Assembly (NCBI GenBank): GCA_025353765.1
Contig: JANXOD010000020.1
Span: 1 to 64,000, forward strand
Origin: Sphingobacteriales bacterium
Lineage (GTDB): Bacteria > Bacteroidota > Bacteroidia > Sphingobacteriales > Sphingobacteriaceae
DNA: 64,000 bases
Reading direction: 5' to 3'
In this document: positions 1-3,433 of the stretch, piece after piece
Position numbering within the stretch: the first letter of the stretch is position 1
Layout of the letters: each line of letters opens with the position of its first letter
Notes under the pieces: model-generated
Told to the model about the DNA's origin: nothing
The model's database searches: none
Seen by the model: only the letters and a program-made list of their open reading frames with translations
Program-made: the position numbers and the translations under genes

Positions 1-18
1 CAGTGCAGCGGAACAAGA

Positions 19-468
19 CGGAGGTGGTTAAGCATTAAACTAAATCACCTTCCTTCCATCCAATCCTCTAAAACCCCAATCACTCCATTTATATCCTCTA
101 GAACTTCCTCATCCTTAAAACGGAGAACAGTAAAACCGATGTCCTCCAAATCAGCTTGCCTTTTCAAATCTTTTTCAAAAACTTCTTCCCAAGTATGGGT
201 GATGCCATCTACTTCAATAATCAGCATCAATTCTATGCACATGAAATCAGCGATATAATTTAACATTGATCTTTGCCTTCTAAACTGATAACCTCGCATT
301 TGCCTGGCTTTTATAACATATTTCCACAAACACGCCTCTGCTCTAGTCATTTGTTTTCTCAGAACTGATGCCAGAGGCTTTAATTTAGAATTGTAAGCAT
401 GAAAGTTGTTTTTATTGGCTTTTTCCATTACAACAAATTACATATATTTTATCGTTTAACCACCTCCG
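19..468. repeat. 13-bp inverted repeat framing the DUF559 gene
   Basis: CGGAGGTGGTTAA at 19-31 is matched by its exact reverse complement TTAACCACCTCCG at 456-468. The arms lie 13 nt beyond the stop and 27 nt beyond the start of the single gene they enclose, so gene plus arms make a compact unit of about 450 bp. No target-site duplication is visible outside the arms. The arrangement resembles a small mobile cassette, but that is inference. Confidence 0.6.
45..428 (-). CDS. DUF559 (VSR-like) endonuclease-domain protein
   Basis: A 127-residue protein of the DUF559 family, which belongs to the restriction-endonuclease-like fold related to Vsr mismatch endonucleases. The family pattern is visible: an MTRAE..LW helix at residues 27-35, QFRRQ at 48-52, YIADF at 58-62, then E72-V-D74-G-x-x-H78 and a C-terminal VLRF strand. 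These carry the acidic residues expected of a nuclease core. The length is normal for the family and the gene looks intact. It is a single gene with no operon partner, tightly framed by inverted and palindromic repeats. The biological role of DUF559 proteins is not established, so nuclease activity is inferred from family. Confidence 0.85.
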   Translation of the reverse strand: MEKANKNNFHAYNSKLKPLASVLRKQMTRAEACLWKYVIKARQMRGYQFRRQRSMLNYIADFMCIELMLIIEVDGITHTWEEVFEKDLKRQADLEDIGFTVLRFKDEEVLEDINGVIGVLEDWMEGR

Positions 469-477
469 CCTCCGGCA

Positions 478-522
478 CCTCCGCCAGCGGAGGACAAGCC
501 TTATTTCCTCCGCTGGCGGAGG
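478..522. repeat. nested palindrome pair (REP-like)
   Basis: CCTCCGCCAGCGGAGG at 478-493 and CCTCCGCTGGCGGAGG at 507-522 are exact reverse complements separated by 13 nt, and each arm is itself nearly palindromic. The GC-rich element stands out from AT-rich surroundings and lies just outside the inverted repeat beside the DUF559 gene. It can fold as one 16-bp hairpin or two small ones. It is probably a dispersed REP-type sequence; copy number elsewhere cannot be seen here. Confidence 0.75.
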
Positions 523-568
523 TAGTTAGCAGACTGTTATATTAAATCAAAAAATAATTTAAAATAAA

Positions 569-600
569 TTTGTGCAATCGAATCATTGCGCATATATTTG
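569..600 (+). promoter_or_regulatory. sigma-A promoter for the ArsR/SRPBCC operon
   Basis: TTTG at 569-572 and TATATTTG at 593-600 match the Bacteroidota -33 (TTTG/TTG) and -7 (TAnnTTTG) elements with a 20-nt spacer. Transcription would start around 604-607, leaving a leader of about 27 nt before the ATG at 633. Confidence 0.7.
571..592. promoter_or_regulatory. candidate operator for the ArsR-type repressor
   Basis: TGTGCAAT-N6-ATTGCGCA is an imperfect dyad (7 of 8 positions symmetric) that fills the spacer between the -33 and -7 elements. Its size and placement fit a dimeric winged-helix repressor that blocks RNA polymerase, so autoregulation by the next gene is the simplest reading. This is inferred from position and symmetry only. 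Confidence 0.5.
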
Positions 601-632
601 CAATCAAACGGTAGCATATAAATATATAAGAC

Positions 633-962
633 ATGAGACGAGATGTATTTCAGGCAATTGCAGACCCAACCAGGAGGGAGATCATCAGCTTGATTGCTCA
701 TCAATCATTGACACCCAATCTGGTGGCCGACAAATTTAACATGAGCCGGCAAGCCATCTCTAAACATATGCAGATTTTAACCGAGTGCGGACTTCTGACC
801 CTTAACATCCAGGGCAGGGAATATTACTACAGTATTCAACCCAAAAAGTTAAACGAGGTTTATGAATGGTTGGAGCCTTTAAGGGAACTGTGGGATAAAC
901 GATTTAACCAGCTTGATCAATTATTAGAAAATAAAACAACCCCTAAAAACCAAAAATTATGA
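633..962 (+). CDS. ArsR/SdpR-type winged-helix regulator
   Basis: A 109-residue winged helix-turn-helix repressor. The N-terminal pattern of the family (FQAIADPTRREII, residues 6-18) is present, and residues 38-49 (SRQAISKHMQIL) form the recognition helix, followed by a beta-hairpin wing ending at GREYYYSI. There is no cysteine pair of the metal-sensing ArsR/SmtB type, so it belongs to the SdpR-like branch whose genes usually sit beside an SRPBCC gene. It overlaps the next gene by 4 nt (ATGA), implying translational coupling. A dyad inside its promoter suggests autorepression. The inducing signal cannot be deduced. Confidence 0.88.
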   Translation: MRRDVFQAIADPTRREIISLIAHQSLTPNLVADKFNMSRQAISKHMQILTECGLLTLNIQGREYYYSIQPKKLNEVYEWLEPLRELWDKRFNQLDQLLENKTTPKNQKL

Positions 963-1453
963 CAACAAAAAAAAGAACAATGGTGACAAAAGACATGGCT
1001 AATAAGAAGCTTTTTACCGTTCGGGAATTTGATGCTCCACGGGAGAAAGTATGGGAATACTGGACTAAGAGTTCTTTACTTGATTTGTGGTGGGCTCCAA
1101 AACCTTGGAAAGCCATGACTAAATCCATGGATTTTAGGGAAGGCGGCCTTTGGTTCTACTGCATGGCAGGCCCGGAAGGGGAGCAACATTGTGCCAGGTT
1201 AGATTACTTAACCATTGATCCCGGGAATTCCTTTACTGCCCAGGACTCGTTTTGTGATGAAGCAGGTAATAAAAATGCTGACTTTTCAGATGTACATTGG
1301 GCGAATAGATTTTATACCACACCAACAGGCACCAGGGTAGAGGTAGAGATGACTTTTAAAGATGAAGCAGATATAGCCAAAATTCTTGAAATGGGCTTTG
1401 AAGGAGGCTTTACCATGGCTCACGGAAACCTTGATGAGTTGTTAGCCAAATAA
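959..1453 (+). CDS. SRPBCC/AHSA1-domain protein
   Basis: A 164-residue cytoplasmic protein of the START/SRPBCC superfamily (AHSA1 branch). The opening phrase (FTVREFDAPREKVWEYWT) and the tryptophan-rich stretch LWWAPKPW are diagnostic of the family, as is the C-terminal helix that closes the ligand cavity (GFTMAHGNLDELL). The gene is translationally coupled to the preceding ArsR-type repressor, the usual arrangement for this pair. Members bind hydrophobic ligands, but no substrate is known. Translation could start at the overlapping ATG used here or at an internal ATG about 20 codons on; the overlap favours the first. Confidence 0.85.
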   Translation: MTTKKRTMVTKDMANKKLFTVREFDAPREKVWEYWTKSSLLDLWWAPKPWKAMTKSMDFREGGLWFYCMAGPEGEQHCARLDYLTIDPGNSFTAQDSFCDEAGNKNADFSDVHWANRFYTTPTGTRVEVEMTFKDEADIAKILEMGFEGGFTMAHGNLDELLAK

Positions 1454-1580
1454 ATCTGGCAACAGGGAAAAAGAAAAATTAGCGAACCGTTAACAGTGGA
1501 TTTGTAAACTGGGGCTGATATGCTTAATTGCACGTCAACCCTTTTATGTAGTAAACCGACACAGTTCTGTGAACGATTCC

Positions 1581-1610
1581 AAAGCTCCGGCCAACGGTCG
1601 GAGCTTTTTT
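1581..1610 (+). terminator. intrinsic terminator
   Basis: An AAAGCTCCG arm pairs with CGGAGCTTT across a short loop and runs into TTTTTT. It lies about 130 nt after the SRPBCC gene and is the likely end of the ArsR/SRPBCC transcript. Confidence 0.65.
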
Positions 1611-1616
1611 ATGACG

Positions 1617-1639
1617 GCTTGACAGTAAAACTGTCAAGC
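1617..1639. repeat. 10-bp perfect hairpin next to the minisatellite
   Basis: GCTTGACAGT and ACTGTCAAGC are exact reverse complements around a 3-nt AAA loop. There is no T-run, so it is not an obvious terminator. It ends 20 nt before the 21-bp tandem array begins. Confidence 0.6.
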
Positions 1640-1659
1640 GAGTATGTAAAAGATACAAC

Positions 1660-1869
1660 AACGTTGATATAAAAAGTATGGCGCTTGATATAAAAAGTAT
1701 GGCGCTTGATATAAAAAGTATGGCGCTTGATATAAAAAGTATGGCGCTTGATATAAAAAGTATGGTGCTTGATATAAAAAGTATGATGCTTGATATAAAA
1801 AGTATGACGCTTGATATAAAAAGTATGAACGTTGATACTAAAAGTATGGAGCTTGATATAAAAAGTATG
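1660..1869. repeat. 21-bp tandem repeat (minisatellite), 10 units
   Basis: Ten head-to-tail copies of a 21-bp unit of the form nnGCTTGATATAAAAAGTATG. The middle four (1681-1764) are identical; the outer ones differ mainly in the first three bases, and one unit has TACTAAAAG in place of TATAAAAAG. Because 21 is a multiple of three, the array stays open in one frame on each strand. The pattern of identical centre and diverged edges is what slippage or unequal exchange produces. Confidence 0.95.
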
Positions 1870-1965
1870 AAGAAGTACTCCCTAAAATTTGACGGTGGCA
1901 TTTCTAAGGTTGGGGAAGCAGTAGACCCTTTTGCAGGTACGCCGGCAGTAAAAATAATATCTTAA
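1678..1965 (+). CDS. doubtful heptad-repeat ORF (MxLDIKS)n
   Basis: An open frame of 95 codons translates the tandem repeat as MALDIKS-type heptads and then a unique tail of about 30 residues. No ribosome-binding site or promoter is visible and the first ATG lies inside the array, so the frame may simply be a by-product of a 21-bp repeat. The opposite strand is also open across the array and would encode a hydrophobic FISSAIL repeat. The amphipathic heptads would form a coiled coil if translated. I do not recognise a family. Confidence 0.2.
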   Translation: MALDIKSMALDIKSMALDIKSMALDIKSMVLDIKSMMLDIKSMTLDIKSMNVDTKSMELDIKSMKKYSLKFDGGISKVGEAVDPFAGTPAVKIIS

Positions 1966-2099
1966 TTTTCTGTTTACTGGTTAAAATTTATCATTGATTT
2001 TAATTGATATATTTGGGATTAAAGGAAAAAAAATTCTTCTTTAGGTTTGTAATCAGCAAATATCGCAAGGACATCAACCTATAAACACAACCATGCAAT

Positions 2100-2750
2100 A
2101 TGAATAAAGATTCCCTTATTACTCATCTCCTTGATAAACACGACTCGCTGAAAATAATTTTATCTCAAGAAAAAGGTTCCTATATCAACAATGGCTTTGA
2201 TGTTAATAAAACTTTAGTGACTGCTCTAATAGGTGCTGTAATTGGACAAGTACTTATTTTCTATATCACTTGGATAAACAACAAACGCACTCTCAAAGAA
2301 AAAAGGAAATTGATAGTCGCTGATTTAGCTCATCAATTAAAAGTACTTGCTCGCTTAGTGATAAAATTAAATGACCTTGATGAAAAATTCGAAAACAAAG
2401 ACACCTTAAATAATACTTCGGACGCATTTCAAGATCTTCAAACTGACATTTATGAAAGTGTGCCAAAACCTGATCTACACAAGATATTCAAAAACGATAT
2501 TTTCAAACTTGTAGACATTTATAAATCAATAAGATTTCTTCAAGATCATTCAATTATATATCTATACGATAATTACATTAGAAAATTGGAAATTCATCAA
2601 AAAGAAAAACAAGGCGATCCTGTTCACGACTTTTTTTGTGCCACACATCTCCGTTTTATTGAAAAAGTTAGGTCTCAAATAAAAGAGAATCTCAGCGGAA
2701 TAACGGACATTACTAAAGAAATGAATAAATTAATTAAAGTATACAGTTAA
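2100..2750 (+). CDS. unknown protein with one N-terminal membrane segment
   Basis: A 216-residue protein I do not recognise. Residues 1-36 are polar, about 38-60 form one strongly hydrophobic helix (TALIGAVIGQVLIFYITWI), and the rest is a charged, mostly helical cytoplasmic-type domain beginning with a basic stretch (NKRTLKEKRK). The layout suggests a membrane-anchored soluble domain. The base composition is more AT-rich than the neighbours and the gene stands alone between a minisatellite and a methyltransferase, which is compatible with acquired DNA. No function is proposed. Confidence 0.6.
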   Translation: MNKDSLITHLLDKHDSLKIILSQEKGSYINNGFDVNKTLVTALIGAVIGQVLIFYITWINNKRTLKEKRKLIVADLAHQLKVLARLVIKLNDLDEKFENKDTLNNTSDAFQDLQTDIYESVPKPDLHKIFKNDIFKLVDIYKSIRFLQDHSIIYLYDNYIRKLEIHQKEKQGDPVHDFFCATHLRFIEKVRSQIKENLSGITDITKEMNKLIKVYS

Positions 2751-2809
2751 GCTTCTGTGTATACTTATCCCAGACCGGAGTAATTTAAACCTACAAGCCC
2801 AACAAAAAC

Positions 2810-3433
2810 ATGGATGAACCCTGGATTGAAAGATGGAATGATAGATATAGTAAAGAGGAGTTTGCTTATGGCGAAGAACCTAACAACTATTTAAAAGAAC
2901 AATTAGAAAAGCTAGATATTGGTTCAATACTTTTCGCGGCAGAAGGCGAAGGACGTAATGCCGTTTTTGCAGCCAAATTGGGTTGGAGGGTTTCTGCATT
3001 TGACATCAGCGTAGAAGGGAAAAATAAAGCCTTAAAACTTGCAGAAGCTAATCAAGTAAGCATTGATTACCAGCTTGGTGAATTGCAGACCTTAGATTAT
3101 AAGCCCGAACAATTCGACGCCATTGCACTCATTTATGCACACTTTCCGGCAGACATTAAATCCGTATATCACAAAACACTTAATAACTATTTGAGAAAGG
3201 GCGGATTAGTTATTTTTGAAGCCTTTAGTAAAAACCACCTGGATTACATCGCTAAAAACCCAAAAATTGGCGGACCAACAGACCTGGCAATGTTATTCTC
3301 CATCAATGAAATAAAGGCAGACTTTGCGAATTATGACATCATAGAATTAGTAGAAAAAGAAATTGAATTGAGCGAAGGCCTGTTTCATAATGGAAAAGGT
3401 TCAGTCATACGGTTTGTAGGAAGGAAAAAGTAA
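2810..3433 (+). CDS. class I SAM-dependent methyltransferase (TehB-like)
   Basis: A 207-residue Rossmann-fold methyltransferase. The SAM-binding motif I is at residues 41-50 ([10 protein letters not shown]), in the variant form seen in TehB/thiopurine-type small methyltransferases, followed by an acidic residue after the second strand (AFDIS) and a motif near [12 protein letters not shown]. The N-terminal [21 protein letters not shown] opening is typical of this cytoplasmic family, whose characterised members methylate small metalloid or thiol substrates. The substrate here is unknown. It is monocistronic as far as can be seen. Confidence 0.85.

Follow-up and report, generated by a model that had tools for sequence, protein, structure and literature searches.

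A DUF559 nuclease gene and its framing palindromes as a candidate minimal mobile element

In the window analysed here, a 64,000-nucleotide stretch of DNA from a Sphingobacteriales bacterium, a DUF559 gene is enclosed by palindromic elements, and gene and palindromes together probably constitute one minimal mobile element that is nuclease-driven. Comparison between genomes shows the framing itself, its recurrence in several phyla, dispersed stand-alone palindromes, joint divergence of repeat and protein, and patchy in-frame inserts with empty sites. On these sequence comparisons the mobile-element reading is strongly supported, and the DUF559 nuclease is, as our best inference, the driver of movement. 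A first-pass annotation had tentatively proposed such a nuclease-driven repeat element, and framing, dispersal and empty sites support it, with movement and the role of the enzyme deduced by comparison. Its mobile-element reading thus stands, whereas its extent had to be revised: the unit is palindrome-gene-palindrome, the lineages involved are wider, and numerous copies are in-frame inserts within genes.

Table 1. Features of the DUF559 locus (window positions)
Feature	Position	Strand	Basis or remark
DUF559 gene, 127 aa, EDxHD/Vsr-fold nuclease candidate	45..428	-	ORF, PF04480, predicted model, solved-structure matches
Right palindromic element	456..529	.	outer end approximate, set by comparison with other copies
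Order within the right element: TTAACCACCTCCG end, CCTCCGCCAGCGGAGG, 11-nt loop, CCTCCGCTGGCGGAGG, GGTAGTTAG end	456..529		
Inner end of right element, TTAACCACCTCCG	456..468	+	sequence, end-motif inventory
Inner hairpin arm 1	477..494	+	inverted-repeat search
Inner hairpin arm 2	506..523	-	inverted-repeat search
Left palindromic element, inner half only, cut by contig start	1..31	.	continues at ends of contig C16
Inner end of left element, CGGAGGTGGTTAA on plus strand	19..31	-	sequence, inverted-repeat search

The lone DUF559 gene reported by the annotation is present (Table 1), and its product matches PF04480 with an E-value of 2.4e-31 (Pfam). The 13-bp inverted repeat formed by CGGAGGTGGTTAA and TTAACCACCTCCG is perfect, as had been claimed, and sits within a 30-nt inverted repeat of 80% complementarity (16-45 / 442-471), while the palindrome pair described at 478-493 and 507-522 extends to perfect 18-nt arms. 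The boundaries were redrawn. The annotation had placed the palindromes outside a unit of about 450 bp ending in the 13-mers, whereas the 13-mers are the inner ends of two flanking palindromic elements; the correct unit is palindrome-gene-palindrome. Comparison with other copies in the genome gives the full layout: TTAACCACCTCCG is followed by a module that varies, then by ACCTCCGCCAGCGGAGGA and a short loop, after which the reverse complement follows, with a module of its own. Allowing up to three mismatches, CCTCCGCCAGCGGAGG has four matches in the window (two sites, both strands each) against 0.05 expected, a number reached in none of 100 shuffles. Folding of positions 456-530 as single-stranded DNA gave z = -7.65, and four elements of the window type ranged from -6.9 to -10.1; the one LeuRS-type stretch tried, in which the insert was only partly spanned, folded weakly (z -1.5). 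Both ends of contig C16 again show the DUF559 tail and the repeat of the left element, so that the contig start of the window is read as an assembly break inside this repeat. Elsewhere in the window (1664-1869), a tandem array comprises 9.8 copies of a 21-bp unit, TTGATATAAAAAGTATGGCGC, and by inspection similar short-unit arrays adjoin several of the palindromic elements elsewhere in the genome (L013, L022, L023, L025).

The palindromes are dispersed in the host genome and concentrated at DUF559 genes, the condition that the annotation had set for a new class of repeat element. The palindrome 16-mer has 19 exact matches in the whole 2.83 Mb genome, with none for the reversed control, and the end motif ACCACCTCCG was found at 27 places, three of which look like chance (C6, C20:258331 and C24), against six for its reversed control. 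About 15 element sites were counted by inspection. All three DUF559 genes found in this genome adjoin a palindromic element, the other two being 94% and 87% identical to the window copy. Under random placement, the chance that all three genes lie within 150 bp of an element is about 1e-7, assuming 20 sites that include the three chance-looking ACCACCTCCG places. Furthermore, a search of 100 relatives for the palindrome CCTCTCCNNNGGAGAGG located it in 26 of the 54 genomes that have a DUF559 match (265 copies) compared with 10 of the 46 without (37 copies); at least 10 copies were carried by 10 genomes with a match and by none without. This association has a Fisher p of 0.007 with kinship ignored, and the reversed control matched in one genome. 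The presence of CCTCTCCNNNGGAGAGG in those 10 genomes without a DUF559 match counts against the best explanation.

The association was then quantified at loci from three sets by a hairpin criterion (GC-rich, perfect, arm of at least 7, loop of at most 8, within 250 bp of the gene) chosen after inspection of the flanks, the loci being best matches and not a random sample. Among the GTDB loci, for which the 80 best matches out of 267 were taken, a hairpin was present at 75 of 80 and on both sides at 50, compared with means of 5.5 and 0.155 of 80 for random positions in the same loci, and with 52/398 and 6/398 for control ORFs; random placement of palindromes relative to DUF559, which the annotation had named as an observation against its reading, was thus not seen. 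At these best 80 of 267 loci there were 6.4 hairpins per kb within 100 bp of the gene, compared with 0.14-0.22 per kb at distances above 1 kb, and five of the 80 had no hairpin within 250 bp (L188, L220, L233, L252, L253). Loci from relatives, which were selected from genome searches and in part share flanks between neighbours (L158, L161 and L170 hold two genes each), carried a hairpin in 52 of 63 cases and on both sides in 36. A plasmid-collection set of 20 loci, picked from 38 records, covered Deinococcus, cyanobacteria, and alpha- and gammaproteobacteria. In these loci outside Bacteroidota, hairpins were found at 18 of 20 (atypical in one of the 18, Azospirillum brasilense), on both sides at nine, and with an inverted repeat between the flanks at 15. 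The palindrome-DUF559 class therefore extends beyond the lineage of the window, to Deinococcus, cyanobacteria and proteobacteria. An inverted repeat between left and right flanks with a score of at least 16 was found at 61/80 GTDB loci (best 80 of 267) and 51/63 loci from relatives, versus 26/363 control ORFs. The DUF559 locus of E. coli, which we take to be ycjD, has no hairpin by the criterion and a flank score of 17, just above the cut of 16. Terminators or chance as the source of the hairpins were rejected against the random positions, the ORF controls and a one-sided pyrimidine polarity. As regards gene neighbourhoods, cyanobacterial plasmid DUF559 genes adjoin DUF1156 or BREX PglX-type methyltransferase genes (L357, L365, L366), and DUF559 lies between the operon genes paaD/paaZ in Deinococcus psychrotolerans and sufB/sufC in Sphingomonas (L350, L360).

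The polarity is nearly uniform. Among 327 hairpins near the genes, the 5' arm was at least 75% pyrimidine in 308 (by set, 160/165, 110/116 and 38/46) and at most 25% pyrimidine in none, whereas hairpins more than 1 kb away had a pyrimidine-rich 5' arm in 57/116, 41/77 and 4/12 cases. In addition, near flanks become more alike as protein identity rises (Mantel r 0.34, a value reached in none of 2000 permutations), while the similarity of flanks 1.5 kb away is flat. The CGCCAGCG core or its complement lies near the gene at 17 of the 18 GTDB loci inspected, L178 being a variant, and loci bearing it include Flavihumibacter, Fulvivirga, Scalindua, KSB1, Desantisbacteria and a Syntrophaceae MAG. These observations bear on the possibility that the palindromes are MITE-like repeats moved by another, unrecognised enzyme, with DUF559 as cargo or hitch-hiker. 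Palindromes without the gene, both in the host genome and in the 10 of 46 genomes lacking a DUF559 match, would be accommodated by such an arrangement, but neither co-divergence of repeat and protein nor a single polarity across phyla is expected of passive cargo, and two other solo gene families in overlapping genomes occur without these hairpins (DUF559-type hairpins at 0/30 GxxExxY and 2/30 IVP loci). A MITE-like origin is thus considered unlikely, and the nuclease-driven element is preferred.

In the protein tree, the window protein groups with that of Flavihumibacter soli (Chitinophagaceae) with a support of 100/87, away from Pedobacter, and the F. soli DUF559 gene adjoins the same CCTCCGCCAGCGGAGG palindrome; this grouping together with the common palindrome suggests transfer of the element between families. 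The same tree places 20 of the 22 rows labelled coding in one 44-row half, and 15 coding rows form one weakly supported subclade (96/36).

The encoded protein is predicted to be an EDxHD/Vsr-fold nuclease. The predicted model of the window protein has a mean pLDDT of 87.4 and a pTM of 0.79, and profile comparison with solved structures matched 3hrl (E 4.9e-32) as well as I-Bth0305I, a homing endonuclease (3r3p; E 1.2e-6). The two also rank top in Foldseek (I-Bth0305I at rank 2-3, E 3.4e-4), followed by Vsr (1vsr, rank 4). EDxHD is described as one of at least six homing endonuclease families (PMC3943268). Across 38 sequences, inserted copies included, W35, Q52, D61, E72, D74, G75 and D87 are invariant, with H78 close to it; judging from the fold, some of these residues probably make up the active site. 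PHROGs assigned the window protein to phrog_503, of unknown function, and two of 50,697 phage records match DUF559. A defence gene was considered and rejected, as PADLOC gave none for the window protein and one weak match (E 0.0041) for a LeuRS-inserted domain. The fold similarity to Vsr raises the alternative that DUF559 is a stationary Vsr-like repair enzyme, with the palindromes as its recognition sites or as transcription terminators, and a role in mismatch repair has indeed been proposed for the Caulobacter DUF559 protein VsrA (PMC12907096). Against this stand the multiple, patchy copies inside unrelated genes, the empty sites, and the ends of control ORFs, which mostly lack such hairpins; a purely stationary role appears very improbable.

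The insertion of DUF559 copies into genes is most apparent among the relatives, in which 36 of 96 DUF559 matches (E up to 5.5e-14; count from the table of matches) lie within open frames of at least 300 aa. Many copies are free-standing and others are translated in frame. Scanning of the insert-bearing proteins, nine with Pfam and eight with NCBIfam, located DUF559 within or fused to LeuRS, HsdR, MetH (at two positions), IcmF, RecJ, RecG, HisF and a PAS/SpoIIE protein. The flanks of the inserts are palindromic on both sides, and for inserts inside genes they are translated. LeuRS has two separate insertion sites. Site 1 was measurable in 24 of 31 rows and unmeasurable in seven; among the 24, five carry the nuclease element (G004, G005, G007, G009, G073), three a palindrome without the nuclease (G006, G044 and G000, the genome of the window), one a decayed remnant (G017) and four other short inserts, while 11 are empty (39-42 bp). 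Conservation of position without empty sites, the other observation that the annotation had named against its reading, was therefore not seen. By inspection, the arsR operon beside the window copy is likewise free of the element in G012 and G014. Target duplication was not demonstrable at the copies compared, where the exact ends of the element could not be fixed. A predicted fold of LeuRS with its insert was set aside (mean pLDDT 59.9, pTM 0.33). At site 2, the LeuRS of G012 (L125) bears another kind of in-frame insert, about 130 aa long and not recognised as DUF559. In four genera a DUF559 element occupies one shared position immediately ahead of hisF, in three of them in frame with that gene and in one out of frame (L069, L070, L071, L095).

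Inserted DUF559 copies are under purifying selection, with dN/dS of 0.10-0.13 for those in LeuRS site 1 and of 0.05 for those in site 2. In three species pairs at site 1, synonymous differences amounted to a proportion of 0.22, 0.39 and 0.39 for the element versus 0.57, 0.76 and 0.79 for the host gene, although constraint on the palindromes could depress the element's value in the linkers; two LeuRS pairs with an empty site 1 had no synonymous dip there. The lower synonymous divergence of the element fits copies that are younger than their host gene and arrived later at the same site. This age signal is limited to LeuRS site 1, since neither site 2 nor hisF showed a dip of element versus host; the G073/G116 upstream comparison was apparently out of frame and was dropped.

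Occupation of one LeuRS site in several species, with synonymous divergence below that of the host, together with the relation to I-Bth0305I, would also be expected of a conventional homing endonuclease gene whose spread is restricted to alleles of one site, with the palindromes as scars or landing aids. However, the many different sites occupied in one genome (11 DUF559 matches in G116) and the dispersed palindromes require movement to new places. In addition, only sub-threshold Rfam matches and no family at gathering score were obtained for window positions 1-3000, so no intron is seen there. Homing confined to one site is regarded as improbable, somewhat less likely than a MITE-like origin and slightly more so than a stationary repair function.

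According to the proposed mechanism of the nuclease-driven element, the DUF559 nuclease, which is related to I-Bth0305I in sequence and fold and to Vsr in fold, would recognise its own pyrimidine-rich hairpins and nick or cut DNA. Host repair or replication would then copy the palindrome-gene-palindrome unit, or the palindrome alone, into the break. Inside genes, a unit would persist because it is open and in frame, and the host protein would gain an extra domain or peptide.

Several known systems share part of this architecture. As in REP/REPIN sequences with their RAYT (TnpA-REP), a single-domain nuclease gene is framed by palindromes that are also dispersed without the gene, often as inverted pairs. 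The likeness to REP/RAYT with a different nuclease fold, as drawn by the annotation, is borne out: dispersed palindromes adjoin the gene, and the enzyme is of the DUF559 EDxHD/Vsr-fold type, matching 3hrl, I-Bth0305I and Vsr, and not an HUH Y1 enzyme. Unlike REP/RAYT, DUF559 copies also lie in frame within essential genes. By eye, no conspicuous GTAG or CGTC tag was seen at the palindrome foot in 13 stretches. Rickettsia palindromic elements are palindromic DNA carried in frame in protein genes (PMC10969869; also PMC3733652), similar to the inserts in LeuRS of G000, G006 and G044; here, however, the palindromes of related units enclose a nuclease gene, whereas the Rickettsia account, in the parts drawn on here, names no partner enzyme. 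The EDxHD homing endonuclease I-Bth0305I has a related nuclease domain, and reuse of one LeuRS site is reminiscent of homing, but the DUF559 gene is framed by dispersed palindromes and the LeuRS insert is kept in reading frame. MITEs are likewise small gene-less repeats with inverted ends; the present elements differ in that their associated gene is DUF559. In the copies compared, no target duplication was demonstrable and no parent insertion sequence was recognised. The Vsr very short patch repair endonuclease (1vsr) shares the fold, whereas DUF559 is multi-copy, palindrome-framed and inserted in genes. The putative DUF559 element resembles both REP/RAYT and homing systems, yet departs from REP/RAYT in the enzyme that defines it. 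In the open-access literature, at the level of titles and abstract openings, none of the 14 papers containing the word DUF559 ties it to repeats or mobility, and GxxExxY occurs in two papers; most subscription papers and preprints fall outside that scope.

If the nuclease-driven reading is true, it would provide a function for DUF559, a widespread domain of unknown function, and point to a candidate enzyme for mobilising the pyrimidine-rich palindromes that are scattered through these genomes. It would also offer a testable model for the in-frame entry of palindromes into coding genes, as in the Rickettsia palindromic elements. Furthermore, LeuRS, MetH, RecG and HisF of some environmental bacteria would carry a nuclease domain under purifying selection, which would bear on annotation and protein evolution.

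Two further families of solo genes, GxxExxY (PF13366) and IVP (PF05635), were sought in 15 of these genomes and found in 13 (up to 19 matches) and in all 15 (up to 23 matches), respectively. With 30 loci returned for each family and a PF13366 fragment (L280) excluded from the comparison, a left-right flank inverted repeat scoring at least 16 was present at 26/29 GxxExxY and 29/30 IVP loci, versus 26/363 control ORFs. As a tentative but serious possibility, DUF559, GxxExxY and the 23S-rRNA-IVP four-helix-bundle protein may be three parallel representatives of a so far hidden stratum of bacterial mobile elements. Each would pair one gene of about 120 codons with a private inverted-repeat class (pyrimidine-rich hairpins, CACAGAGG-type repeats and heptad-like tandem repeats, respectively) and occur many times in a genome, and the DUF559 type would also colonise essential genes in frame. 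The GxxExxY genes (L256-L285, for instance L258, L259 and L262) have their own inverted-repeat class, of the CACAGAGG / CACAGATTACACAGAT type, and the IVP four-helix-bundle genes (L286-L315, for instance L289, L292 and L293) have inverted, heptad-like tandem repeats on their flanks, which differ between genomes.
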